Source of the DNA: Pseudomonadota bacterium
GTDB lineage: Bacteria > Pseudomonadota > Gammaproteobacteria > Xanthomonadales > Xanthomonadaceae
NCBI GenBank assembly: GCA_021821195.1
Contig: JAKACT010000007.1
Coordinates: forward strand, 75,442 to 139,441
Length of the DNA: 64,000 nt
Reading direction: 5' to 3'
Part shown: positions 33,898 to 51,383 of the stretch, piece by piece
Numbering within the stretch: the stretch's first letter is position 1
How the letters are laid out: every line of letters begins with the position of its first letter
Program-made: the position numbers and the translations under genes
The notes under the pieces: model-generated
Database searches by the model: none
What the model saw: the letters and a program-made list of their open reading frames with translations, nothing else
What the model was told of the DNA's origin: nothing

Positions 33898-35622
33898 TCA
33901 GTCCTTGGTGACGCGGTTGATCTCGATGAGGCTGGTGATCCCCTGTTTCACCTTGTCTAGCGCGGAGCGCCGCAGGTCGCGGACGCCGCTGCGCAGGGAC
34001 GCCTCGGTCAGCTGCTGGACATTACCACCAGCCAGCACGATCTGCTGGATTTCCTCGGTCATCGGCATCACCTGGTAGATGCCGGCGCGGCCCTTGTAGC
34101 CGCCGGTGCACTCGTCGCAGCCCACCGCCTCGTACACGGTGATGCCGGCGTGGACCTCGTCGGCGGTGAAGCCTTCGGCCAGCAGCGCGTGCTCGGGCAG
34201 GTGCACCGCGCGCTTGCAGTCGTGCAGGCGGCGCACCAGCCGCTGGGCGATGACCAGGTTCACCGAACTGGTGATGTTGTACGGCGCGATGCCCATGTTC
34301 ATCAGGCGGGCGATGGTCTGCGGGGCGTCGTTGGTGTGCAGGGTGGACAGCACCATGTGGCCGGTCTGCGCGGCCTTGATCGCGATCTCCGCGGTTTCCA
34401 GGTCGCGGATTTCGCCGACCATGATCACGTCCGGGTCCTGTCGCAGGAAGCTGCGCAGGGCGGCGGCGAAGGTCATGCCGCGCTTGGCATTCTGCTGCAC
34501 CTGGTTGACGCCGGGCAGGCGGATTTCCACCGGGTCTTCCACCGTGCTGATGTTGCGGGTTTCGTCGTTGAGGATGCCCAGCGCGGTATACAGGCTCACG
34601 GTCTTGCCGGAGCCGGTGGGGCCGGTGACCAACACCATGCCGTAGGGCTTGTGGATGTTGTCCAGGAACAGCTTCTGCTGGTCCGGCTCGTAACCCAGCT
34701 TCTCGATGCCCATCTTGGCGGCGCTGCCGTCCAGGATGCGCAGCACGATCTTTTCGCCGAACAGGGTGGGCAGGGTGCTGACGCGGAAATCGATCTGCTT
34801 GGTCTTGCTGAGGCTGAGCTTGATGCGGCCATCCTGTGGAACGCGCTTCTCCGCGATATCCAGCTGCGACATCACCTTCAGGCGCGCGGCGATGCGCGCA
34901 TGCAGCTTCACCGGCACCTTCTTGAAGGTCTTCAGGATGCCGTCGATGCGGAAGCGCACCCGGTAGTCCGTCTCGTACGGTTCGAAGTGGATGTCCGAGG
35001 CGCCGCGGCGGATTGCATCCACCAGCGCCTTGTTGACGAACTTCACGACCGGGGTGTCCTCGCCCTTGGCGTCCACGCCGGTGTCATTGCCCAGGTCGTC
35101 GTCGCCGCCGCTGACTTCCAGGCCGTCCAGGCCATCGGAATCGGCCAGGTCGTCGGCCATCGCGTCGGCCGCCTCCAGCCATTGGTCCAGGCAGCGCTTG
35201 ATCCGGTCGGCGTCCACCAGGATCGGTTCCACCGTCAAGTTGGTCTGGAACTTGATGTCATCCAGCGCGCGGTTGTTGGTGGGGTCGGAAGTGCCCACGA
35301 ACAGCCGGTTGCCGCGTTTGAACAGCGGCAGGACCTGGTGCTTGCGCAGCAGTTCTTCCTTGACCAGGGCGATCGCGGACTGGACCGGATCGATGGCCAG
35401 TGCGTCCACCAGCGGCATGCCGAACTCGATGGAATTAGCGGCTGCCAGCGCCCCCGGCGAGACCAAGCGACGGTCGGCCAGGTAGGACGCCATCGGCATT
35501 TTCTCGGCGGTGGCGCCGTCCATCGCCTTGCGCGCGACGGCTTCCTCCAGGGCGCCGTCCAGCACCAGGCGCCGGGCGATGCCGGTGATTCCCATCAGGT
35601 TGGCGGTGGGGGCGGTGCTCAT
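33898..35622 (-). CDS. pilB: Type IV pilus assembly ATPase PilB
   Basis: Walker A GPTGSGKT; SFLRQDPDVIMVGEIRDLETAEIA; tetracysteine region CDECTGGYKGRAGIYQV. Confidence 0.95.
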   Translation of the reverse strand: MSTAPTANLMGITGIARRLVLDGALEEAVARKAMDGATAEKMPMASYLADRRLVSPGALAAANSIEFGMPLVDALAIDPVQSAIALVKEELLRKHQVLPLFKRGNRLFVGTSDPTNNRALDDIKFQTNLTVEPILVDADRIKRCLDQWLEAADAMADDLADSDGLDGLEVSGGDDDLGNDTGVDAKGEDTPVVKFVNKALVDAIRRGASDIHFEPYETDYRVRFRIDGILKTFKKVPVKLHARIAARLKVMSQLDIAEKRVPQDGRIKLSLSKTKQIDFRVSTLPTLFGEKIVLRILDGSAAKMGIEKLGYEPDQQKLFLDNIHKPYGMVLVTGPTGSGKTVSLYTALGILNDETRNISTVEDPVEIRLPGVNQVQQNAKRGMTFAAALRSFLRQDPDVIMVGEIRDLETAEIAIKAAQTGHMVLSTLHTNDAPQTIARLMNMGIAPYNITSSVNLVIAQRLVRRLHDCKRAVHLPEHALLAEGFTADEVHAGITVYEAVGCDECTGGYKGRAGIYQVMPMTEEIQQIVLAGGNVQQLTEASLRSGVRDLRRSALDKVKQGITSLIEINRVTKD

Positions 35623-35728: not shown

Positions 35729-36907
35729 TCAGCTCGTGTCCGCGCTGCTCACCGCCGCCTGCAGGTTGCGCCAGCCGATCACGCGCACGCCGCTGCGCTC
35801 ATAGGCGTCTTCGCCGCCGTACACCAGCCACGGCGGCAGGGCTTCCGCACCGGCAAAACGCGCGGCCTTCTGCCCGGCGCGGATGTAGTCAGGCGTCACA
35901 GTGGCGCCGGACTTGATTTCCACCGGCTGCAGTCGGCCACTGGTTTCGAACAGCAGGTCTGCTTCCAGCCCATTGTTGTCGCGCCAGAAATACAGATCCG
36001 GTGGCAGGCCCTGATTCAGGCGGGCCTTGATGAATTCCCCCACCACCAGCGTTTCAAACAGCGCGCCGCGGAGCGGGTGCAGGCCCAGCGTGGCCGCATC
36101 GCGGATACCCAGCAGCCAGCATGCAAGGCCGGTATCGACGAAATGCAGCTTGGGCGATTTCACCAGCCGCTTGCCGAAGTTGCGGTGGTAGGGTGGCAGC
36201 AGGAACACGATGCCACTGGCTTCCAGCACCGACAGCCAAGCGCGCGCGGTGTGGTTGGAGATGCCAGTCTCGCCCGCCAGCGCGCTGATGTTGAGCAGCT
36301 GCCCGGTGCGCGCGGCGCACAGGCGCAGGAAACGCTGGAACGCGGAGAGATCCTGCACGTTGAGCACCTGCCGCACGTCGCGCTCCACATAGGTCGCGAC
36401 ATACGAGGCAAACCAGTCCGCAGGACGCAACGGCTGCGCATGCAGCGCGGGATACATGCCCAGCAGGAGCAGCGCATCCAGGGGGCGCTGGGCCGTCTGC
36501 GCAGCCGGCAATTCCGCCAGCGACAGCGGCAGCAGCCGGGTCATGCCCACCCGACCAGCCAGCGATTGGGTGACGCCGGACAACAGCCCGAACTGCTGGG
36601 AGCCGGTCAGCACGAACCGCCCCGGCACCCGATCCGCGTCCACCATGCCCTGCAGATACGAGAACAGATCCGGCCAGCGTTGCGCCTCATCGAACACCGC
36701 CCCGTGCGCGAAGCGCGCCAGGAAGCCGCGCGGGTCCTCGCTGGCGAAAGCACGCTCCTGCGGGTCTTCCAGGCTGACGTACGGCTTGTCGGCAAACAGC
36801 CGCCGCGCCAGCGTGGTCTTGCCTGACTGGCGCGGCCCGGTCATGGCCACCACCGGGAAGCCTTGGGCCAGGCGCTGCAGGGTTGGGGTCAGGGCACGGG
36901 GGAGCAT
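35729..36907 (-). CDS. AAA-family ATPase with DUF4143-type C-terminus
   Basis: Walker A TGPRQSGKTTLARRLF; FDEAQRWPDLFSYLQGMVD; RFVLTGSQQFGLL. Confidence 0.82.
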   Translation of the reverse strand: MLPRALTPTLQRLAQGFPVVAMTGPRQSGKTTLARRLFADKPYVSLEDPQERAFASEDPRGFLARFAHGAVFDEAQRWPDLFSYLQGMVDADRVPGRFVLTGSQQFGLLSGVTQSLAGRVGMTRLLPLSLAELPAAQTAQRPLDALLLLGMYPALHAQPLRPADWFASYVATYVERDVRQVLNVQDLSAFQRFLRLCAARTGQLLNISALAGETGISNHTARAWLSVLEASGIVFLLPPYHRNFGKRLVKSPKLHFVDTGLACWLLGIRDAATLGLHPLRGALFETLVVGEFIKARLNQGLPPDLYFWRDNNGLEADLLFETSGRLQPVEIKSGATVTPDYIRAGQKAARFAGAEALPPWLVYGGEDAYERSGVRVIGWRNLQAAVSSADTS

Positions 36908-37454: not shown

Positions 37455-38673
37455 CAGGGACATGGACGAGCGCATCAAGCTGCTGCAAGTGAATGTGGCA
37501 GGCCGTCTCTCTGGGCAGTTGCTGCAGCAGTCCGGCTTCGAATACCGCTATCTGCAGGCGGATCCGGCCCAGCCTGTGGTGGGGTTGCTGATGCCACCCG
37601 CGCGGCTTACCTGGCGCGACGGCGCGCTGTTCCCGGTGATGGATCAGAATCTCCCGGAAGGCGATCTGTTCAACCGCCTGCGCCAGCAATTCCCCAAGCA
37701 GGCGATGACTGCCATGCGCCTGATTGCGCAAATCGGCGACAACGGCATCGGCCGGCTGGGCTACCGCGTGCCCGGCGGCGCGGCACCGGCGGCGGGTGTG
37801 CCGATCGCCCGGCAAACCCTGCTGCGCATGCCGTTCACGGTGCAGGTGTTCGACGAACTGGTGGGTGCCTACCTTGCCACCGGTATTGGCGTGGCCGGCA
37901 TGCAGCCCAAGATCATGGTGCCCGACCGCGCCACCATCCCCATCCCCAATCTGATCGTGAAAACCGCCGGCGCAGGCTATCCCGGCCTGACCGCCAACGA
38001 ATATCTGTGCATGACGGCGGCCGCGCGTGCCGGCATCGACGCGGCCAAGGTGGAACTGAGCGACGACGGGCAACTCCTGCTGGTGGAGCGCTTCGATCTC
38101 GACGCCGATGGCCAGCGCCTCGGCTTCGAAGACGTGGCGTCGCTGATGGGGTTGCGCGTGCGCGATACGTTGTCCGAACGCAAATACCACGGCAGCTACG
38201 AGCGCATCGCCGAGCTGCTGGGCATGATCACCGGCAATCGTCGCGACCTGCAGCGCTTCTACGAACAACTGGCGTTTTCAATCATGGTGGGCAATGGCGA
38301 TGCCCATCTGAAAAACTTCGGCGTGCTCTATCGTGGCGTGGCCGACGACATCCGCCTTGCCCCCATGTTCGACGTCGTCACTACGCGCATCTACCGCTAC
38401 CAGCGCTCCCCCGGCGGCCCCGAACTGGAAGACCACAGCATGGCCCTGCGGCTGTGGTCGGGGAAAGCACGCCGTTCCAAGGCCTATCCCCTGCCGGAAG
38501 AACTGCGCCGTTTCGGCCGCGACGTCTGCGGCGTGCGCGATCCGCAGGCACCGTTGGACAGGATTGCCGCAGCCATGGCCGATACCCTGCACGCCGCCGA
38601 TCCACGCATTCCCGCCGGCCTGCTGGCGCGGCTGCGTCCGGTGTGGGAGAACGGAATCCGGTATGGGCAGTGA
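37444..38673 (+). CDS. HipA-family serine/threonine kinase toxin
   Basis: LLLVERFD, FSIMVGNGDAHLKNFGVLY, LAPMFDVV HipA motifs; overlaps hipB. Confidence 0.88.
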   Translation: MTTDRDMDERIKLLQVNVAGRLSGQLLQQSGFEYRYLQADPAQPVVGLLMPPARLTWRDGALFPVMDQNLPEGDLFNRLRQQFPKQAMTAMRLIAQIGDNGIGRLGYRVPGGAAPAAGVPIARQTLLRMPFTVQVFDELVGAYLATGIGVAGMQPKIMVPDRATIPIPNLIVKTAGAGYPGLTANEYLCMTAAARAGIDAAKVELSDDGQLLLVERFDLDADGQRLGFEDVASLMGLRVRDTLSERKYHGSYERIAELLGMITGNRRDLQRFYEQLAFSIMVGNGDAHLKNFGVLYRGVADDIRLAPMFDVVTTRIYRYQRSPGGPELEDHSMALRLWSGKARRSKAYPLPEELRRFGRDVCGVRDPQAPLDRIAAAMADTLHAADPRIPAGLLARLRPVWENGIRYGQ

Positions 38674-38732: not shown

Positions 38733-39596
38733 ATGGGGAACCCGACGCTCAGCATCATCCTGCCAGCCAAAAACGAGTCCGAAGGCCTGCGCGGCACCTT
38801 GCCGGCGCTGCGGGTGGCTTATCCGGACGCGGAGATCATCGTCGTCGACGACGGCTCCACCGACGACACCGAGCGCGTCGCCCGCGAGGCAGGCGCCAGC
38901 GTGTTGTCCTCGCCCTATTCCATGGGCAACGGCGCCGCCATCAAGCGCGGTGCGCGTGCAGCAAGGGGCGAAATCCTGGTGTTCATGGATGCGGACGGCC
39001 AGCACGGCGCGGGCCACGTCCGCGCGCTGCTGGACAAGCTGGGTGAAGGCTACGACATGGTGGTGGGCGCCCGCGACCGCAGCGGCCAGGCCAACCTGCA
39101 CCGCGGCCTCGCAAATGGCTTCTACAACCGCCTGGCCAGCTGGATGACCGGCCACCGCATCGCGGACCTGACCTCCGGCTTCCGCGCCGTGCGCGCCGAC
39201 AAGTTCAGGGAGTTCCTGCACCTGCTGCCCAACGGCTTCAGCTACCCCACCACCAGCACCATGGCGTTCTTCCGCAGCGCCTACCCGGTGGCCTACGTGC
39301 CCATCCCGGTGGCCAGGCGGGTGGGCAACGGCAGCCACATCCGCCCGTTCAAGGACGGCGTGCGCTTCCTGCTGATCATCTTCAAGATCGCCAGCCTGTA
39401 CTCGCCGTTGAAGCTGTTCGCGCCGACGGCGGTAGTGTTCTTTCTTGCCGGCGCAGGGTGGTACGGATATACCTTCGCCACCCGGCACCAATTCACCAAT
39501 ATGAGCATGCTGTTGTTCAGCGCTGCAGTTATTATTTTCTTGATTGGACTGATTTCCGAGCAAATTACGAGTCTTTTGTATCGCACGGTGGAATGA
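38733..39596 (+). CDS. GT2 glycosyltransferase, DPM/GtrB-like, with C-terminal TM helices
   Basis: LSIILPAKNESEGL, IIVVDDGSTDDT, FMDADGQH, DLTSGFRAVRADKF; two hydrophobic C-terminal segments. Confidence 0.88.
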   Translation: MGNPTLSIILPAKNESEGLRGTLPALRVAYPDAEIIVVDDGSTDDTERVAREAGASVLSSPYSMGNGAAIKRGARAARGEILVFMDADGQHGAGHVRALLDKLGEGYDMVVGARDRSGQANLHRGLANGFYNRLASWMTGHRIADLTSGFRAVRADKFREFLHLLPNGFSYPTTSTMAFFRSAYPVAYVPIPVARRVGNGSHIRPFKDGVRFLLIIFKIASLYSPLKLFAPTAVVFFLAGAGWYGYTFATRHQFTNMSMLLFSAAVIIFLIGLISEQITSLLYRTVE

Positions 39597-39648
39597 GCAG
39601 TGAGCTTGATAACCACACCAGAATTTTGGATCGTTTGGTGAAGCGATA

Positions 39649-40809
39649 GTGCAGATTCAGTTGATTAGCCAATTTGGTAAGCCTGTGCGTGGCGTGAGCC
39701 CTTATTCCGATGGGCTATTGGCGGGGCTTCGGCGGCTCGGGAATGTCAACATCGAAGTGGTTGATTATAAATCCGCTTACCCTGGAGTACTGCATCCGGC
39801 ACAATACGAGCGTGTGGATGGGCGTGGCGAATTGAGTTGGTACAGCCCTGGCAGTTGGAAGGCAGTTGCCGGGAGATCTTCCGGAATTATGCACATCCAG
39901 CATTGGGCGCCGCCATTGGCTGTTTATTTATGGCCGCTGGTTCGCCTTGCTAAAAAGAACGGGCGCCGTGTTGTCGTAACTGTGCATAACCCCATTGCGC
40001 ATGAGAAAGTCGGGGTGTTTAGATTCTTTGAGCGTCGCCTGCTCTGTGCGGCGGATATGCTACTGGTGCACGGCGCGGTGGGGTGCAGGATTTTACAGGA
40101 GCGGATGGGCAGCACCGGGTCGTTGGTGCGCCGAATTGAACATGGGATGGCAGTCGCTGAACAGCCCGTGTCCCCGACACCTGATGATTATGCCAGTCTA
40201 GGGCTGGATCCTGCTTATCGCTATGTCTTGTTGTTTGGAAACCTGAGGGGCTATAAGGGCGTTGATGTTCTGTTGGATGCATGGAAGCGTGCGCAACCTC
40301 ACTTGGACAACGTCAGGCTAGTGATAGCGGGAAGGCTCTGGGATGGCGGTGGGCGATGGATCGGATGGGCCAGTGCTAGCCTGTTAGGTGTTGCCGGAGA
40401 TGCCCGCAGGATTCAGAGGATGTTGACATTTGAAGGATCAATGCGTGGCATCGTTTTGCGCGAAGGGTTCCAGAGCGATGCCGAAATCGATGCGTTGATC
40501 AGGGTCTGCGAATTTGCAGTTTTCCCATATGTGCGCTTCTCTGGGCAGTCTGGCGCAGCGTGCCGAGCGGCAGCTTTGGGAAGACCCGTATTGGTAAGTC
40601 GCGTGGGGGGGTTGCCCGACCTGGCCATTGACGAGAGCTGGGTCGTCGGGCCCGGTGATAGCTTGGCGCTGGCTGATCGGCTTTTGGAGAAGCTTGCAAA
40701 ATCCAGCTGGGACGGAGAGATAAATTTCGTGCAGCTGAATAAGGTACGCGGTTATGACTGGGACGCCGTTGCGCGCGATCACGTGGCGGCGTATCGGGAG
40801 CTTGCATGA
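39649..40809 (+). CDS. GT4-family glycosyltransferase
   Basis: QIQLISQFGKPVRGVSPYSDGLLAGL; YVLLFGNLRGYKGVDVLLDAWKRA; GTG start. Confidence 0.82.
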   Translation: MQIQLISQFGKPVRGVSPYSDGLLAGLRRLGNVNIEVVDYKSAYPGVLHPAQYERVDGRGELSWYSPGSWKAVAGRSSGIMHIQHWAPPLAVYLWPLVRLAKKNGRRVVVTVHNPIAHEKVGVFRFFERRLLCAADMLLVHGAVGCRILQERMGSTGSLVRRIEHGMAVAEQPVSPTPDDYASLGLDPAYRYVLLFGNLRGYKGVDVLLDAWKRAQPHLDNVRLVIAGRLWDGGGRWIGWASASLLGVAGDARRIQRMLTFEGSMRGIVLREGFQSDAEIDALIRVCEFAVFPYVRFSGQSGAACRAAALGRPVLVSRVGGLPDLAIDESWVVGPGDSLALADRLLEKLAKSSWDGEINFVQLNKVRGYDWDAVARDHVAAYRELA

Positions 40810-41837
40810 GGGCGCAGAACGACGAATTGCAGCCTGTCGTCAGCGTCTGCATCGCGAATTACAACGGTGAAAAGCTGTTGGATGAGTGCATCGAGTCTGT
40901 TCTATCCCAGGATTTCGGTGGAGACGTCGAAATTCTCGTGCACGATGACGCATCAACTGACGCATCTCTGCGCGTTTTGGAGGAGCGATACGCCGGCATC
41001 GTCGTTATCCCCAGCACCGTCAACGTTGGTTATTGTGTTTCCAATAATCGTCTCGCCGCCCGCGCCCGGGGGCAGTATCTTCTTTTGCTTAATAACGACG
41101 CGACCCTGAGGCAGGGGGCGCTGCGTGCGCTAGTTACCGACGCGGCGCTGCGCAGGGCTCCGTTTGCGCTCACCTTGGCACAGTATGACCGAAGGTCCGG
41201 CGCATTGGTCGATCTGGGAGTCAGGTTGGATCTGTTGCATACGCCGGTGGCTAATCATGAGGTGAATTGCCGGCGACTCGCCTATGTTCAGGGGGCATGT
41301 CTTTTCATTCGCCGTGATGACTGGTTCAGGCTGGGCGGCTTCCCTGAATGGATGCAGTCGAATGCGGAGGATGCGTACTTATGCGCTCTGGTGCGCCTGC
41401 ACGGAGGGGCGATAGGAGTGGTAGGGGGGAGTGGCTATGATCACCTCCAGGGTGCGAGTTTTGGCGGCAATCGGCTTGATAATCATGGCCTGAGTACGAC
41501 GTATCGTCGCCGATATCTGAGTGAGCGTAATCGTGCAAGCATGGTCTTCGTCTGCACGCCAGGGGCCACCTCTTGGTTTTTTTACGCAATGCAAGTGGTG
41601 GTGCTCCTTGTAGAGGGTGCGCTACTCAGTATGCTCAAACTCGATTGGAAGTTGTGGCGTACGATTTACTGGGCCGCGGCGAGGGATTCGCTGGGAATGC
41701 TGGGGAGGCTGCGCGCTGCTCGGCGACGGGCGCAGTCGGGGCGGAAAATAGGTCTTTGGTCATATCTGCGGATTTTAGACCCGATTCCCCATAAGCTGGT
41801 GATGTTCATCAAGTATGGCTTACCGCAGCTGAAGTAG
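40806..41837 (+). CDS. GT2-family glycosyltransferase
   Basis: VVSVCIANYNGEKLLDECIESVLSQ; LLLLNNDATLRQGAL; QGACLFIRRDDWFRLGGF. Confidence 0.85.
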   Translation: MRAQNDELQPVVSVCIANYNGEKLLDECIESVLSQDFGGDVEILVHDDASTDASLRVLEERYAGIVVIPSTVNVGYCVSNNRLAARARGQYLLLLNNDATLRQGALRALVTDAALRRAPFALTLAQYDRRSGALVDLGVRLDLLHTPVANHEVNCRRLAYVQGACLFIRRDDWFRLGGFPEWMQSNAEDAYLCALVRLHGGAIGVVGGSGYDHLQGASFGGNRLDNHGLSTTYRRRYLSERNRASMVFVCTPGATSWFFYAMQVVVLLVEGALLSMLKLDWKLWRTIYWAAARDSLGMLGRLRAARRRAQSGRKIGLWSYLRILDPIPHKLVMFIKYGLPQLK

Positions 41838-41908
41838 GCTCACTGACTGGTGGGCATCGCGCCGGTGCTGGCGCTCGTTTTGATCGGCGAATGGATATGA
41901 CGGACATT

Positions 41909-43681
41909 TCAGGAATCAAGACCTGGAGGGGTGGGTAGGTGCAGGATCTGGTTGCAGCTTCTGAGCGAAGCATCTCTATGGGCTATGACGATGATCGTTT
42001 TCTTCCCGCTCAAATTCTGGATGGCTGCGTTGACCGCTTCCTCAGTGGCGTTATCGAGTGCGCTGGTGGCTTCGTCCATCAGAAGTACCGCCGGATCGCG
42101 GTAAAGGGCGCGGGCGATGCCGATGCGCTGACGCTGGCCGCCGGATAGCCGGATGCCGCGGTCGCCGACTAAGGTGCGATACCCCTGCGGCAGATCGGAA
42201 ACGATGAAGTCGTGAATTTGAGCGGCGCGCGCGGCGCGCTCGACGGCCTCCATGTCGATGTAGTCTGCCGCCATGCCAAAGGCAATGTTTTCGGCAACGC
42301 TGGTATCTGCCAGATAGATGCTCTGCGGCACATAGCCAATGGTGCGCTGCCAATTTGCAAGATTGCCAGCATTAATTGGTGTGTCATCAACCAGCAAGCT
42401 GCCGTGTTGGGGGGCAAGTAGACCCAGCAACACGTCCATCAAGGTGCTTTTGCCAGCACCGCTGGCGCCGGCAATTCCAACGCTGGTATAAGCCGGGATG
42501 CGCATATTCAAGCCGGCCAGCACTGGATGGTCTGGACGGCTCGGGTAGGCATAGTGCACGTCCCGCAGGCGAATTTCTCGCATTGGCAGTAGCGAGCCTG
42601 CGACTCGCGACAATGGCTCGTCTTGAAGGTTTATGTCGCGATAAAGAGTATCTAGGATAGCGGCGCTAAATTTTAGTTTGGCGAGGCTGCGATACATGAT
42701 CTGCGCCGAGGGAAGCATGCGGTAGGCGGCGAACCCGTACAGGCCTAAGGCAGGAAGCACATGCGCAATGTCACTGTTTTGCCCCAGCAATAGCAAAGCG
42801 ATCACGATCAGCAGGCTATAGCCGGTTGCCTCCACCAGATATAGGGGGGATTGTGCAAGAGTATCGCTATTTGCCGTATGTCTGGCAAATTCGCGCGATG
42901 CACCACTGAAACGGGTTAGCCACGCCATGGCGCTGTGCGTGATCTTGATGTCTTTGATTCCGCCCAGTGCTTCGTTGCAGGTTTGGTAGCGCTGGCCATT
43001 TGCAATTTGGCCATCGCGGCCGGTATTGAAGAGTAGTTTTCGTGCCAGTAAGTATATGCCTCCATATAATAATCCTAGTGCCAGCACGATTCCTAGCGCA
43101 ATTACCGGGTCATAGGCGAATACCAGTGCGGTCATTGCCGTTGCAACCGCGCCCTGTGCTACCAGTTGCGAAAGCGGGTAAATGGCGTTGTCGGTAAGTT
43201 GATCGACTTCAGAAATTACGTTGCGAGCAAGAAGGGAGGGGTTGGATTCAAGAAAAAATGCATAGGGTTGGTGGAGGTAGCGCTCCAGTAGGCGGCTGCT
43301 GATCGAGTGCCTGAGAAACTGCACGAAACGATTGAGTAAATGTAGCGTGATGGTCTTGAACGCCGATGAAAGCACGACTAGCAAGATAGATGAAACGCCG
43401 AGCGCCATTAGGAAGCCGTGTGCATCCTGCGCACCGGAAAGCTTCCATGCGTATGAAAGGAATGGTTGCTCGTGAATGACCTCGGGCCTACCTAGGACCG
43501 ACAGAAACGGCATGATCGACAGAACGCCGGCAGTTTCAGCCAGGGCCATCAGGATCACCAGTGACAGCATCACCAGCGATCTGCGCTGCTCGGCGGGAGT
43601 CAGCAGTGTCCTCAGTTTGCCAAAGCTGCCGGAAGGCAGCTGTTTCAGGTTGGAACCCGTTTGCTCCACATTGCGCCCCAA
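41909..43681 (-). CDS. ABC transporter, fused TMD-NBD, PglK/MsbA-like lipid-linked glycan flippase candidate
   Basis: Walker A GASGAGKSTLMD; signature LSGGQRQRIGIARALY; PglK-like AAYRMLPSAQIMYRSLAKLKFSAAILD; TTG start. Confidence 0.8.
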   Translation of the reverse strand: MGRNVEQTGSNLKQLPSGSFGKLRTLLTPAEQRRSLVMLSLVILMALAETAGVLSIMPFLSVLGRPEVIHEQPFLSYAWKLSGAQDAHGFLMALGVSSILLVVLSSAFKTITLHLLNRFVQFLRHSISSRLLERYLHQPYAFFLESNPSLLARNVISEVDQLTDNAIYPLSQLVAQGAVATAMTALVFAYDPVIALGIVLALGLLYGGIYLLARKLLFNTGRDGQIANGQRYQTCNEALGGIKDIKITHSAMAWLTRFSGASREFARHTANSDTLAQSPLYLVEATGYSLLIVIALLLLGQNSDIAHVLPALGLYGFAAYRMLPSAQIMYRSLAKLKFSAAILDTLYRDINLQDEPLSRVAGSLLPMREIRLRDVHYAYPSRPDHPVLAGLNMRIPAYTSVGIAGASGAGKSTLMDVLLGLLAPQHGSLLVDDTPINAGNLANWQRTIGYVPQSIYLADTSVAENIAFGMAADYIDMEAVERAARAAQIHDFIVSDLPQGYRTLVGDRGIRLSGGQRQRIGIARALYRDPAVLLMDEATSALDNATEEAVNAAIQNLSGKKTIIVIAHRDASLRSCNQILHLPTPPGLDS

Positions 43682-43784
43682 ACTGCACGAACTCGGTGGA
43701 TGGTAAGCGACGCGCCGAAAGAATTGGGTCGCGTCGGCATGACTTTGCCCTCAGGAGAGTCAGGCCGGGAGTGGGGCAGGGGGT

Positions 43785-45722
43785 TCAGGGGGATACATCC
43801 GGATCTTTGGCGGTGTTTGCCCGCAGCCGGGAAGCGCCCAGCTGTTCGATCTTCCCGGCCAGATCTGGTCTGCCCTTGGCTCGCAGCACCCCCGCTACAT
43901 GCAGCGGAAGCAGGTTGCCCTGCGGGGACAGGGCAATGGCCTTCAGGAAGTAAGGCATTGCAAGATCAGGGCTGCCCAGATCGTTCATGATGAAGTTGCC
44001 GATGAAGACTAGCTCCCCCGTAGCCAGAGGGCTTGTCTGAGCTTGGGTTTCGAAGACTTCAAGTAGTTCATGACGATCCAGCTTGACGCCTTTACGTGCG
44101 TTGTACACAAGCAGCATCGGAGCGCGACGGTTGTCCCAACTCCTATCGGCGATCTTCATTCGCTGCCGGAACTTCGCCCAGTCTTGCGCGGCAATGTCGC
44201 CGCGCAGTGTTTTGAGGACGATTCGCAGGGCTGGGCTGTTGAGCGAGCCAGGAACCAGCCTGCTGCCGTTGTCGCAAGCGCTAATGGCGGCGTCCAGACG
44301 GGTGTTGCGCGGGGTTGGGCCGCCGCCCAGCGCATAGTGTTCCGCACACAGTTGGATCCATGCGCGGGCCGAGTGCGGTGCGGCGGCGGTGCTGGCCTGC
44401 GCGAACAGCAGGTTGCTGCTCCAGCTGTGTGCGCGAACAACGGTGGCGCTGCACAGTGCCAGCAGCAGGGCGCTGCACGCAATGCCCTGCTGCATCGGAG
44501 CAAGCCGCAAGCGCTGGCCGGCCTCTGCCAGCACGCTGCCAATGGCCAGTACGGCGCCAATCAGTGCGAAGTGGTTGCGGTGCTCATAGGCCAGTTCCAG
44601 TCCAACCACGTTGCTGGTGATGAAATGGGCGGCGAAGAACAGGAAGATGCCCAGTGCCAGCAGCGGACGCTTTTTGCGCTGCAAGACGGCCAGCAATAGC
44701 AGGACGGAGAGCAGTGCGATCGATGCCAGCGTGGTCCAGGGATGCAGCAGGCCGCGCGACGGTCCAAGCCAGTCGTAGTGGAAGGGCATGTGCGACGGTA
44801 GCGGCAGCAGGATCTGCCATAGATACATCGCCAATACCCGCCCTTGGGTCAGCAGGCGCTCGGGAGTGGAAAAATTGCGCCCGCTATAGGCATCCCAATT
44901 CCAGAAGTGCGGCACTGCCACGAACAGGTAAAGCGCCGCTCCCGCCAAGGCGGCCAGCAGGTAGCCGCGCCGCAGGCGGCGTGCCAATCCTGCATCGGCT
45001 GCGGCGAACTGAAGCACCGTGAGTTCCAGCGCCAGCGCGTAAACGGGCAGCATGACGCTGTCCTCCTTGCACATCAAAGCCAATCCCCAAAGCAGCGCCG
45101 CGCCCAGCAGGCCGGTGCGGCCGCTGCGCCCTGCGACCTGTGCGCGGCGTGCTTGCAGGTAAGCCAGCAGCGCCAGTACAAGGAATAGCGTGCCCATTGC
45201 CTGTAGCCGCTGCACTGCATACAGCACTGAAGACACCAGTAGCGGATGTGCCGCCCATGCCAACGTCAGGGCGGAAGCTGCCCAGTCCGCGTGTTCAATC
45301 CGGGTGCCGGCTGCCAGGAGGATGTTTCTGAACAGCCACGCCAGTGAAAGCGTGGTCAACGCGTGGATCAGGATATTGGTGGTCTTGAACGTAGCGGGAT
45401 CCGCGCCGCCACCTCGCCAATAGTCCAACGCAAAGGTCAGATTCGGAAGGTTCCGCAGGTCGCCGGAAGGTTGCGGGGTGGCGAGTAACCGGATGAGCGC
45501 TTGACTATTGAGTTCCTTCAACGCGATTGCTGGGTTGTTGACGATGTTGGGGAAGTCGTCGAACAGGAATTCGCCCGGCAGGCCCGGCAGGTAGAGCAGG
45601 GAAGCCACCAGCGCGATCAGCAGGCTGGCCAGCAGAAAGCGGGGTGCGGCTGCGGGCGGTTGGGTAGGCATGCGTGAAAACCAGTGTGAGGGCCGGAAGG
45701 GAGCAATTGGGCTGAAGCTCAC
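43785..45722 (-). CDS. GT-C-like multispanning membrane glycosyltransferase candidate with C-terminal soluble domain (paralog 1)
   Basis: Many TMs; DD in first loop (FLFDDFPNIVNNPAI); FKTTNILIHALTTL; GLELAYEHRNHF; GTGA overlap with upstream paralog. Confidence 0.7.
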   Translation of the reverse strand: MSFSPIAPFRPSHWFSRMPTQPPAAAPRFLLASLLIALVASLLYLPGLPGEFLFDDFPNIVNNPAIALKELNSQALIRLLATPQPSGDLRNLPNLTFALDYWRGGGADPATFKTTNILIHALTTLSLAWLFRNILLAAGTRIEHADWAASALTLAWAAHPLLVSSVLYAVQRLQAMGTLFLVLALLAYLQARRAQVAGRSGRTGLLGAALLWGLALMCKEDSVMLPVYALALELTVLQFAAADAGLARRLRRGYLLAALAGAALYLFVAVPHFWNWDAYSGRNFSTPERLLTQGRVLAMYLWQILLPLPSHMPFHYDWLGPSRGLLHPWTTLASIALLSVLLLLAVLQRKKRPLLALGIFLFFAAHFITSNVVGLELAYEHRNHFALIGAVLAIGSVLAEAGQRLRLAPMQQGIACSALLLALCSATVVRAHSWSSNLLFAQASTAAAPHSARAWIQLCAEHYALGGGPTPRNTRLDAAISACDNGSRLVPGSLNSPALRIVLKTLRGDIAAQDWAKFRQRMKIADRSWDNRRAPMLLVYNARKGVKLDRHELLEVFETQAQTSPLATGELVFIGNFIMNDLGSPDLAMPYFLKAIALSPQGNLLPLHVAGVLRAKGRPDLAGKIEQLGASRLRANTAKDPDVSP

Positions 45723-47575
45723 TGCCCCGAGCCTTGTCCACTGATTTGCTCTTTCGCGGCCAGTGTCTGCAGGCGGGAAGCAAGCTCGGCCTTGCCCTCC
45801 CTGTTCAGATCGCTTATCAGGCCGCTGGTGAAGGACGGATCTTTCGCCTTAAGAATTGCCTGCGCGAAGTAGGGATAGGCTCGATTTGGCTGTCTGGCAT
45901 GGCCAAGGACAAAATAACCAAGAGATGCATCCATGATCGCAGAGTAGGAATAGCGGGTGTTGGCAATAGCGATAGCTTCAAGGAGATAATTTTCGTCAAG
46001 TGCTACGCCGCTCTGGAAGTTTTGAATAAGGATCCAGATGGACATGCCATTTTCAGATCGCTCTGGGAGTTTATCTAGGCGGTTCAGGTAGATTCGCCAG
46101 TCTGTATCAGTGATATTTCCACGTAAGGTTTTGTAGGTAATGAGATTGGTGTGGCTGGAGACTGATTTCATGTCCAGCTTTGCTGCGCGAGTGCATGATG
46201 CAATGGCTTTATCCAGATTTGGATTGTCCGCTCTGGCTCCGCCGCCGGATTTGTACCATTCGACACATAAGGAGTTCCACGCCCGCACCGAGGTGGGCGC
46301 AATCCTCGTCTCGTACTCCAAAAAGCCAATCGGCGAGCCCCAGGCCCGTGCACGGAGCGCGGTGGCACTTCCAAGGGTAAGAAGGACTCCCGCGGTGGCA
46401 AGCGCGAGGTGGTGGGGGCGCAACTTCAGGCGCGAAGCGGCCATGATCAGCAGATCGCCCGCAGCCAGCACCGCCCCGATCAGCGGGAAGTGGTTGCGGT
46501 GCTCGAACGCCAATTCCAAGCCAATCACATTGCTGGCAACGGCGTGCCCGGCAAAGAACAGCAGCAGGCCCAGTGCGAACAGTGGGCGGCGGTGACGAAG
46601 GCGCCAGGCCAGCGCCAGAAGGCCGAGCATCAGCAGCAGCGCAGGCAAGGTCGTCCATGGCTGCAGCAAGCCGCGGGAGGGCTGCAGGTTGTCGTAGTAG
46701 AAGGGCAGGCGCGATGGCAGCGGCCACAGGATCTGCCCCAGATACATCGCCAGTACCCGGCACTGCGTCAGCAGGCGCTCCGGTGTGGAGAAGTCCCGGC
46801 CGGGATAGGCCGCCCAAGACCAGTGGCGCGGAAGCACGTAAAGCAGGAAAACGGCCAGCCCCAGCGCGCCGGAGATCCAGTAGAGCGTGCGGATGGTTCG
46901 TGCAAGACCCGGTCGCGCTGCCCGGAAACGCAACACGGTCCATTCCAATGCCAACGTGTAGGCGGGCAGCAGGATGGAGTCCTCCTTGCTTGCCAGCGCC
47001 AGCGCCCAGCAAAGGCCGGCCAGGACGCCGAACTGCCGGCTGCGCTGCCCGGCGATCTGCGCCTGGCGCATCTTCAGGTAGGCCATCAGCGCCAGCACCA
47101 GGAACAGCGTGCCCAGCGTCTGCATGCGCTGCACGATGTAGAGCACCGAAGACACCTGCAAGGGGTGGATCGCCCATGCTGTTGCGAGTGCGATTGCGGC
47201 GTAACCGGCACGCTTGTCCGGCCAGCCTGCCAGCGTCAACAGCAAGCGCAGGAAGCCGGCCAATGCCAGCGTCGTCACGGCATGGATGACGATATTGGTG
47301 GCCTTGAAGGCGGCGGCATCCAGCCCCGCGCGCCAGTGATCCAGCGCGAACGAGAGCATCGGCAGCGCGCGGGAGCCGCCGCCCGAGGTGAATCCATAGG
47401 CAGCGCCCATTAACCGTTGCGCGTCCAACGTCGCGACCTGCACCGCCGGGTTCTCGGTGATGGTGGGTTGGTCATCCAGCAGGAAGCCGCCACCAAGCCC
47501 GGGAAGGAACAGCACGGCGGAAAGCAGTGCGCAGAGGGCGGCGATCAGGAGATAGCGATGCGGGTGCGATGGCAT
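45719..47575 (-). CDS. GT-C-like multispanning membrane glycosyltransferase candidate with C-terminal soluble domain (paralog 2)
   Basis: FLLDDQPTITENPAV; FKATNIVIHAVTTL; FSTPERLLTQCRVLAMYL; GLELAFEHRNHF; aligns along its length with paralog 1. Confidence 0.7.
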   Translation of the reverse strand: MPSHPHRYLLIAALCALLSAVLFLPGLGGGFLLDDQPTITENPAVQVATLDAQRLMGAAYGFTSGGGSRALPMLSFALDHWRAGLDAAAFKATNIVIHAVTTLALAGFLRLLLTLAGWPDKRAGYAAIALATAWAIHPLQVSSVLYIVQRMQTLGTLFLVLALMAYLKMRQAQIAGQRSRQFGVLAGLCWALALASKEDSILLPAYTLALEWTVLRFRAARPGLARTIRTLYWISGALGLAVFLLYVLPRHWSWAAYPGRDFSTPERLLTQCRVLAMYLGQILWPLPSRLPFYYDNLQPSRGLLQPWTTLPALLLMLGLLALAWRLRHRRPLFALGLLLFFAGHAVASNVIGLELAFEHRNHFPLIGAVLAAGDLLIMAASRLKLRPHHLALATAGVLLTLGSATALRARAWGSPIGFLEYETRIAPTSVRAWNSLCVEWYKSGGGARADNPNLDKAIASCTRAAKLDMKSVSSHTNLITYKTLRGNITDTDWRIYLNRLDKLPERSENGMSIWILIQNFQSGVALDENYLLEAIAIANTRYSYSAIMDASLGYFVLGHARQPNRAYPYFAQAILKAKDPSFTSGLISDLNREGKAELASRLQTLAAKEQISGQGSGQ

Positions 47576-47801
47576 GCTGAAGGTCGCGCTGAAGGATTCC
47601 GCGCATTGTAGGGGCGTTGGCGGCGCGCCCTTCCGCAACGGTGGCGGTTGCGATTCGCGTGCGGTTGGGGTGAGCCCATCGGCCGGAGCCCTTTGCGATG
47701 ATGCGGCGCAGGCCGTGCGGAAGCCGCAACTCCAGTCGCCGTGCTTCCGGGTTAGCCGGATGCAAGCTCACGCTTGCGTCAGAGCGGGTGACGCCAAAGG
47801 T

Positions 47802-48149
47802 TCAATTGAACCGGCAGCTGGCCTGTCCTGTGCTGCTGGTGCTGTCCATGGCGCAGGTGATGGTCTTGCTGCCAGGGGACTGCGGCGTGGCGGTCACGTC
47901 CACGCCGATCGCCGTGCCGCCCGTCAGGGTGGCGCACGCGCCCCGGGTTGGGGATGCGGGCGTCAGGTTCTGGTAGAGCTGCACCAGTGCATCGTTCGCG
48001 TAGGCTTTCGCCTCGGCCATGCAGGAGGTCTCCGCGGCACGGATGCGGTAGTTGTTGTAGGCGGGCAGGGCGATGGCCGCCAGGATGGCGATGATGGCCA
48101 CCACGATCATCAGTTCGATCAGGGTGAAACCGGGGGCGGTTTTTTGCAT
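47802..48149 (-). CDS. pilA: Type IV major pilin, copy 2
   Basis: [41 protein letters not shown]-terminal Cys pair. Confidence 0.93.
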
Positions 48150-48185
48150 GACCTTGCCTGATTGGGAGTGACTGACCTGATCCAA

Positions 48186-48201
48186 AGCAATTTCCGCGCC
48201 A
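48186..48201 (-). promoter_or_regulatory. Sigma54 promoter of pilin copy 2
   Basis: Minus strand TGGCGCGGAAATTGCT; GG-N10-GC spacing. Confidence 0.7.
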
Positions 48202-48248
48202 TCCTTGGTTGGATGACTTTGTTCAAGCGATGGCCGGAGGCGGCACCC

Positions 48249-48280
48249 AGAAAAAACAAACCCCGCCGGAGCGGGGTTTG
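48249..48280 (-). terminator. Intrinsic terminator of pilin copy 1
   Basis: Minus strand caaaccccgc tccg gcggggtttg followed by ttttttct. Confidence 0.85.
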
Positions 48281-48302
48281 CGGGAGCCGCATGGCGTGGC
48301 GA

Positions 48303-48650
48303 TTACTGCCAGGTGCAGGTCGCGGTCTGCTCCGAGCACTTCGGATCCTTGACGCCCGGGTCTTTGGAAGTGAAGTTCGCAAGGTAATCTACGGTGACCT
48401 TTTCGGCGTTGCCAACAGTCGGGGTGGTTGCGCCCGTGCAGGCGCCTGGCGTATGCACAGGGATGGTAGAGCCACTCTTCGCTGCAGCAACCCAAGAGTT
48501 CATAAAGGCCTTCGCCTCGCCCATACAGGCGCTTTCGGCCGAACGGATGCGGTAGTTGTTGTAAGCCGGCAGCGCAATCGCGGCCAGGATGGCGATGATC
48601 GCGACCACGATCATCAGTTCGATCAGGGTGAAGCCTTGCTGCTTGTTCAT
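48303..48650 (-). CDS. pilA: Type IV major pilin, copy 1
   Basis: [40 protein letters not shown]-terminal Cys pair. Confidence 0.94.
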
Positions 48651-50790: not shown

Positions 50791-51090
50791 TCAGGCAACA
50801 GCAACGGTGATCTTCAGGCCCAGTGCGTGCGCGACCTTGCTTACGGTAGCGAAGCTTGGATTGCCTGTGCCGGAAAGTGCCTTGTACAGCCCCATGCGGG
50901 TCAGGCCCGTTTGTGCAGCCAGTTGCGTGATGTTCCTTGCGCGCGCAACGTCGCCCAGCGCCGCGAGAAGGAGAGCAGGATCGTCCTCTTCCGCGCAGGC
51001 AGACAGGTAGGCGGCAATGTCTTCTTCGGTCTCAAGGTAGTCGGCAGTATCAAACCGGGTGAAGGTTTCTTTGGTTTTGGCCATGATCAT
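50791..51090 (-). CDS. HTH antitoxin, HigA-like (addiction module)
   Basis: DVARARNITQLAAQTGLTRMGLYKALSGTGNPSFATVSKVAHALGLKI; ATGA overlap with toxin. Confidence 0.85.
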   Translation of the reverse strand: MIMAKTKETFTRFDTADYLETEEDIAAYLSACAEEDDPALLLAALGDVARARNITQLAAQTGLTRMGLYKALSGTGNPSFATVSKVAHALGLKITVAVA

Positions 51091-51383
51091 TCCTCCCAGC
51101 AGGCTGCGATCTTTGTGGCAAGCCGGATGTCCTTGCTCTGGGTGGATTTGTCTCCGCCACAAAGCAGAAGGATCAACGTCTTGCCTTTGAACGTGTAGTA
51201 CACCTGGTAGCCGGGGCCATAGTCGATCTTCAGTTCGTTGATCCCGCCTGCAAGTGAGCGGGATTGGCCCGGATTGCCTAGCGACAGGCGTCTGATGCGG
51301 ACCTCGATTCTGGCCTTGGCGTCACGATCACGAAGTCTCCGCAGCCATGCATCAAAAGTGCTGCTCTTCAGGATCTCGTGCAT
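51087..51383 (-). CDS. RelE/HigB-type toxin (addiction module killer)
   Basis: FDAWLRRLRDRDAKARIEVRIRRLSLGN...GPGYQVYYTFKGKTLILLLCGGDKSTQSKDI. Confidence 0.87.
   Translation of the reverse strand: MHEILKSSTFDAWLRRLRDRDAKARIEVRIRRLSLGNPGQSRSLAGGINELKIDYGPGYQVYYTFKGKTLILLLCGGDKSTQSKDIRLATKIAACWEE

Follow-up and report, generated by a model that had tools for sequence, protein, structure and literature searches.

A 64,000-nt window of a Thermomonas genome (2.92 Mb), the whole stretch of DNA analyzed here, carries an island of glycosyltransferase (GT), transporter and GT-C-like membrane protein genes between the type IV pilus genes pilB and pilA. Judged from comparative sequence evidence, this island is probably an exchangeable type IV pilin O-glycosylation cassette. 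Pilin glycosylation had been proposed in an earlier note on this DNA, and three comparisons support it: the co-occurrence of GT-C genes with the gene for a DPM-like enzyme, their linkage to pilin genes, and the co-variation of the GT-C proteins with the adjacent pilin. The pil region has the order coaE-pilD-pilC-pilB, island, pilA2-pilA1, pilR, pilS, sucC, and all genes named in that note were found where it had placed them. The genes that matter to the argument are as follows.

33898-35622, minus strand: pilB extension ATPase (PF00437, E=2e-145; MshEN, E=1e-20), one edge of the exchangeable interval
38733-39596, plus strand: DPM/AglJ-like GT2, a predicted polyprenyl-phosphate sugar synthase (PF00535, E=3e-30); core gene on the pilB side
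39649-40809, plus strand: GT4 glycosyltransferase, cassette-specific (PF13692, E=6e-15)
40806-41837, plus strand: GT2b glycosyltransferase, cassette-specific (PF00535, E=1e-20)
41909-43669, minus strand: PglK/MsbA-type ABC half-transporter, candidate lipid-linked oligosaccharide flippase
43785-45671, minus strand: GTCb, second GT-C-like membrane protein
45719-47575, minus strand: GTCa, GT-C-like membrane protein with a C-terminal TPR-like domain (618 aa)
47802-48149, minus strand: pilA2, type IV prepilin of 115 aa on the GT-C side of the tandem pair (N_methyl PF07963, E=2e-8)
48303-48650, minus strand: pilA1, type IV prepilin of 115 aa, first of the tandem pair (N_methyl PF07963, E=9e-12)

Distribution, pilin linkage and exchange of the GT-C genes

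Across 298 genomes from the GTDB family to which the window belongs, GT-C homologues were found in 148 genomes from 36 of 54 genera, and DPM orthologues, 69–91% identical and always single copy, in 134. Both were present in 132 genomes, GT-C alone in 16, DPM alone in two and neither in 148; the two DPM-only genomes are 82–83% complete. Whenever the two genes shared a contig (119 of 119 pairs), they lay no more than 16.5 kb apart, with a median of 7.2 kb. The PglK-like ABC gene is much rarer: close relatives (56–66% identity, apart from the window itself) were found in eight of the 298 genomes, representing eight genera, and all eight lay within about 7 kb of a GT-C or DPM gene.

A GT-C profile scan of 84,980 species genomes gave 78 loci, drawn from the best 80 matches and therefore the closest relatives. 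These loci came from Stenotrophomonas, Lysobacter, Luteimonas, Xanthomonas, Rhodanobacter and Dyella, and from the more distant Gilvimarinus, Marinobacter, Alcanivorax, Acinetobacter, Pseudomonas, Roseateles and Gallionella. In 77 of the 78, a prepilin motif was no more than 2.4 kb away from the GT-C gene, and the remaining locus breaks off at a contig end beside pilB/pilD/pilC. The gene order is pilA-GTC-pilA-DPM-ABC in Acinetobacter and pilA-pilA-GTC-DPM-MOP in Pseudomonas. In a class-wide sample, GT-C genes were present in 93 of 274 genomes, and a prepilin was found within 1.5 kb at 20 of 28 further loci checked. The earlier note had raised the possibility that the GT and ABC genes regularly lie away from pilins; we checked this and found the pilin linkage and on-locus ABC placement just described.

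Distances were compared with pilA2 as the window's pilin. GT-C distances correlated with those of the adjacent pilin (r=0.73), and the correlation was retained given pilB (partial r=0.727, p≤0.0005). In contrast, correlation with pilB was weak for GT-C (r=0.23 in this test and 0.29 in the one that included DPM) and r=0.12 for pilin, whereas it reached r=0.84 for DPM. Therefore, pilin and GT-C behave like a single exchangeable unit, with the DPM gene remaining at pilB. Where pilins are in tandem, the GT-C correlation was 0.78 for the proximal pilin vs 0.70 for the other (95% interval of the difference, 0.01–0.14).

These results bear on an alternative in which the GT and ABC genes make O-antigen or exopolysaccharide and sit near pilins by chance or through a shared insertion preference. 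The cassette families (RmlA-like proteins, dehydratases, DegT, methyltransferases and GT4) are typical of O-antigen loci, and the low GC content (56–63% at 39–47 kb vs ~69% in most of the window) suggests horizontal transfer. However, the GT-C and ABC genes are almost exclusively pilin-linked, GT-C co-varies with pilin, no PglC/WbaP or WecA starter was detected in 158 loci, and the two O-antigen ligase/polymerase genes of this genome (PF04932) are on other contigs (C6 and C4). We consider this alternative very unlikely; a chance O-antigen or exopolysaccharide locus was rejected on the GT-C linkage (77/78) and the ABC placement (8/8).

We also examined 15 genomes without the system at pilB. The pilB–pilA gap was nearly empty (0.4–1 kb) in L224, L226, L228, L229, L230 and L232. 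In L220, L222, L223 and also L225, some of them Thermomonas genomes, it was occupied by tandem proteins of 607–641 aa with GtrA/GtrB-like genes. These substitutes form a GT-C-like family that carries the motif GI[ND]HDxxLYLGxAL, showed no profile similarity to the first GT-C family, and occurred in seven of the 298 genomes, none of which has the first type; a model of the family resembles ArnT, EmbB and ALG9, though non-significantly. GT-C genes are thus replaced in place by an unrelated type, and the comparison of this interval across the family, suggested in the earlier note, showed the GT-C system, a near-empty gap or the unrelated GT-C pair.

GT-C-like proteins and the proposed glycan pathway

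Neither GTCa nor GTCb matched a family in Pfam (E≤0.001; none at E≤10 for GTCa) or NCBIfam, and a phmmer search of the PDB with GTCa gave no match. Two residues, D34 and D35, in the first loop after transmembrane helix 1 were invariant in 21 diverse GT-C sequences. The AlphaFold model of GTCa, built on a 21-sequence alignment, was confident (pLDDT 90.4, pTM 0.86) and consists of a multi-helix membrane domain followed by alpha-helical repeats, with residues 430–615 arranged as paired helices. Consistent with TPR repeats, a profile of the 21 GT-Cs matched consensus TPR proteins across its C-terminal third. A Foldseek search with the model returned nothing below E=0.001; its best non-TPR matches were yeast/human STT3, ArnT and AglB (probability 0.94–1.0, TM-score 0.27–0.38), and the best solved GT-C structures had a probability of 0.96–1.0 at E≥0.06. 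The GT-C-like label, at first a guess from hydrophobicity, now draws on the confident model, the invariant DD and Foldseek matches to GT-C enzymes that stayed below significance. GTCa and GTCb are likely GT-C-type enzymes, and their linkage with a DPM-type synthase indirectly favours transfer from a polyprenyl-phosphate sugar donor.

GTCa and GTCb share 48% identity, and in the GT-C tree (FastTree, local support only) they fall in separate old clades; a recent tandem duplication as their origin was ruled out on both grounds. The tree mixes bacterial families, including Alcaligenaceae and Moraxellaceae.

Accessory genes next to pilA do not always encode enzymes: TfpY, encoded beside pilA, promotes pilus assembly (PMC11841053). 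With this precedent, and with a TPR-like domain that suggests protein binding, the GT-C-like proteins could instead be pilus accessory factors that modulate assembly or retraction. Such a role is very unlikely, as the GT-C genes are linked to a polyprenyl-phosphate sugar synthase gene even without a pilin nearby, and the proteins combine the invariant DD in the first loop with a multi-helix architecture resembling GT-C enzymes.

The DPM-like enzyme matched DPMS, ArnC and GtrB in the PDB. Its best NCBIfam match was AglJ (E=7e-34), although its 117.5 bits fall short of the cut-off of 325, and AglJ was the best full-length NCBIfam match of the enzyme in Thermomonas, Pseudomonas and Acinetobacter alike (117–139 bits). 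No homologue of a PglC/WbaP-type or WecA-type starter was detected in 158 loci with queries from the window genome, where one of the three WecA queries was truly WecA-like. This leaves the DPM-like enzyme as the sole recurrent candidate for priming at these loci, and it likely primes the glycan.

The window ABC protein aligned over its full length (residues 25–578, E=6e-77) with Campylobacter jejuni PglK (PDB code: 5c73), which bears out its earlier designation as PglK-like. It also matched NCBIfam PglK (E=2e-91) with 307 bits, below the equivalog cut-off of 1000, and the second-best ABC protein in its own genome is only 33% identical to it. Profiles grown from locus seeds distinguished three flippase classes: PglK-like ABC, MOP/Wzx-like (PF01943) and LPG_synthase_TM (PF03706), the last of which are only hypothesized to act as polyprenyl-sugar flippases. 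Among 85 loci, de-duplicated by DPM protein and taken with 3.5 kb flanks, 43 had LPG_synthase_TM, 22 MOP and four ABC, and 16 had none. No locus had two or more classes, vs 13.1 expected from shuffles (p=0.0002); with 6 kb flanks, two loci have two classes. Unrelated flippases thus replace one another in place.

The intervals of 40 loci held 127 proteins, which comprised 27 GT4 proteins, 18 methyltransferases, 10 GT2 proteins and eight NDP-sugar dehydratases/epimerases, together with DegT aminotransferases and others; an RmlA-like family is also among the cassette genes. Homologues of GT2b (45–48% identity) were found at seven other GT-C loci, and the window GT4 had no close homologue in the other GT-C loci compared.

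In the proposed pathway, the DPM/AglJ-like enzyme would place the first sugar on undecaprenyl phosphate, GT4 and GT2b would extend the glycan at the cytoplasmic face, and the PglK-like ABC protein would flip the lipid-linked product. GTCa and GTCb would then transfer the glycan (or successive sugars) to Ser/Thr of PilA1 and PilA2 before pilus assembly, presumably en bloc, and their periplasmic TPR-like domains may grip the prepilin. The order of the steps, the lipid carrier, the O-linkage and transfer to pilin itself are all predictions of this scheme.

The main rival explanation is stepwise transfer of single sugars, as by TfpW or in eukaryotic O-mannosylation. Here, the DPM-like enzyme would make a polyprenyl-phosphate hexose, a flippase would turn it over, and each GT-C would add one sugar to pilin or to the previous sugar, with the ABC protein and cytosolic GTs serving a separate second step. 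GT-C enzymes typically use polyprenyl-monophosphate sugars, GT-C and DPM form the constant pair even at loci with no recognised flippase, and two old adjacent GT-C paralogues would suit two sequential sugars or two sites. Set against this, the cassettes are rich in cytosolic GT4 and GT2 enzymes (27 and 10 of 127), which need a lipid acceptor, and each has one flippase, including the oligosaccharide classes (PglK-like and Wzx-like). On balance, stepwise transfer seems rather unlikely.

Several observations weigh against pilin glycosylation by a lipid-linked pathway as proposed here. The likeness of GTCa to GT-C enzymes in Foldseek is non-significant (best E 0.06, TM-score about 0.36–0.38), a DPM orthologue was not found in 16 GT-C genomes, and 16 of the 85 loci have no recognised flippase. 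In addition, co-transfer of linked genes, rather than a fit between enzyme and substrate, could give the GT-C/pilin signal, and the p-values are optimistic because the genomes and loci are related by descent. Finally, some GT-C+DPM pairs outside the family (L180, L182, L186 and L188) lack a prepilin motif in their vicinity. The constant unit is therefore GT-C+DPM, and pilin need not be its sole substrate.

A wider reading, which we put forward only tentatively, is that the plan of the archaeal AglJ pathway operates in bacteria. A DPM-like enzyme, not a phosphoglycosyltransferase, would prime an undecaprenyl-monophosphate oligosaccharide, any of three interchangeable flippase classes would move it, and a new GT-C/TPR oligosaccharyltransferase family would transfer it en bloc to a co-evolving pilin, across Gammaproteobacteria and into Betaproteobacteria. 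If the GT-C family acts as proposed, an unnamed transferase family, and possibly a glycan route primed on a monophosphate, would join the means of attaching sugars to proteins; only a few pilin-specific transferases are known (TfpO, TfpM, PglS and TfpW). GT-C genes are present in roughly half the Xanthomonadaceae-type genomes sampled and in a third of those in the class-wide set, and a cassette that travels with pilin and has unrelated substitutes in place is what one would expect if the cell surface varies against phages or other receptors. We found no description of this gene set in the open literature; subscription papers lay outside the search, which makes this a weak sign of novelty, and the set is apparently undescribed so far in the searchable open literature.

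Pilins and other genes of the region

Both window pilins have a class III prepilin leader and an N-methylation motif (PF07963). PilA1 and PilA2 are two pilin types, and several genera have them as neighbours in this order. No glycosite stood out among the conserved Ser/Thr columns of the pilins. A GG-N10-GC sigma-54-like element, read from the sequence and not statistically significant, lies ~90 bp upstream of pilA1, and pilR, beside the pilins, carries Sigma54_activat (PF00158). Three further features lie between pilB and pilA1.

35729-36907: DUF4143 AAA ATPase, between pilB and the glycosylation genes
37462-38673: HipA-like gene, between pilB and the glycosylation genes
48256-48281, minus strand: intrinsic-terminator-like hairpin 3' of pilA1, with an 11-bp stem and a T-rich tail (pattern match)

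Published work reports attenuation at pilin accessory genes, with Xanthomonas campestris pv. vesicatoria among the examples (PMC11841053). The hairpin after pilA1 fits such attenuation, although hairpins are no commoner here than in shuffled sequence (13 terminator-like matches observed in the region vs 11.4 expected from shuffles).

The glycosylation genes that the earlier note assigned to the island stand, but its range left out the DUF4143 and HipA-like genes of the pilB–pilA interval. Both were rejected as parts of the machinery, with HipA found in one other locus only and DUF4143 in one (35%). The HipA gene has a 90% identical copy in L216, where it adjoins DPM. A spermine/spermidine synthase domain (PF01564 in L042) is carried by a membrane protein of ~1000 aa that turns up repeatedly next to pilins (L038, L042, L054, L056, L059, L061, L064 and L220). 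A toxin-antitoxin-like gene pair lies at 50791-51383 between pilR and pilS (PF21716 antidote; Gp49-like just below the cut-off), and both in the window and in a close relative, G151 (L044, L218), pilR has the opposite orientation to pilS.

Comparison with known glycosylation systems

Like the TMTC/PMT enzymes (GT105/GT39), GTCa has an N-terminal GT-C-like membrane domain followed by TPR and is accompanied by a DPM-type donor synthase. C-terminal TPR repeats, a trait of the TMTC family, are found in both the GT-C profile and the GTCa model. Unlike TMTC, the window proteins had no match to TMTC_DUF1736 (PF08409); a PF08409 search of 56 genomes gave no match with the controls silent too, and it says nothing on absence elsewhere. 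Priming on a monophosphate carrier would follow the same logic as the Haloferax AglJ pathway, but the AglJ scores are far below the cut-off (117–139 vs 325 bits) and the island has no AglB-type transferase. In Campylobacter Pgl (PglK/PglB), as in the island, a single locus encodes a full-length PglK-like ABC protein, GTs and a membrane transferase, whereas the island has no PglC-type starter and its proposed transferase has no STT3/PglB family match.

TfpO/PilO, TfpM, PglS and PglL all have an O-antigen-ligase domain (PMC12645811). Pilin-linked periplasmic transfer of a lipid-linked glycan to pilin, as proposed for the island, is shared by TfpO, TfpM and PglS. In contrast to these proteins and PglL, GTCa and GTCb have no match to the O-antigen ligase domain (PF04932), and by predicted domain content the cassette is distinct from all four.

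TfpW, the D-arabinofuranosyltransferase of P. aeruginosa group IV and P. paraeruginosa, is a GT-C pilin enzyme that is exchanged horizontally together with its pilin (PMC12369383). Its D-arabinofuranose comes from a distant seven-gene cluster and its gene sits with TfpX, whereas the AglJ/DPM-like synthase, cytosolic GTs and candidate flippase are all within the island. As in the island, the TfpW gene is a GT-C-type gene beside pilA, and its product glycosylates the neighbouring pilin. A GT-C gene adjoining a pilin gene, the TfpW-type arrangement, is found in the window and in 77 of the 78 loci, and by analogy TfpW is the nearest functional relative of the predicted GT-C transferases.

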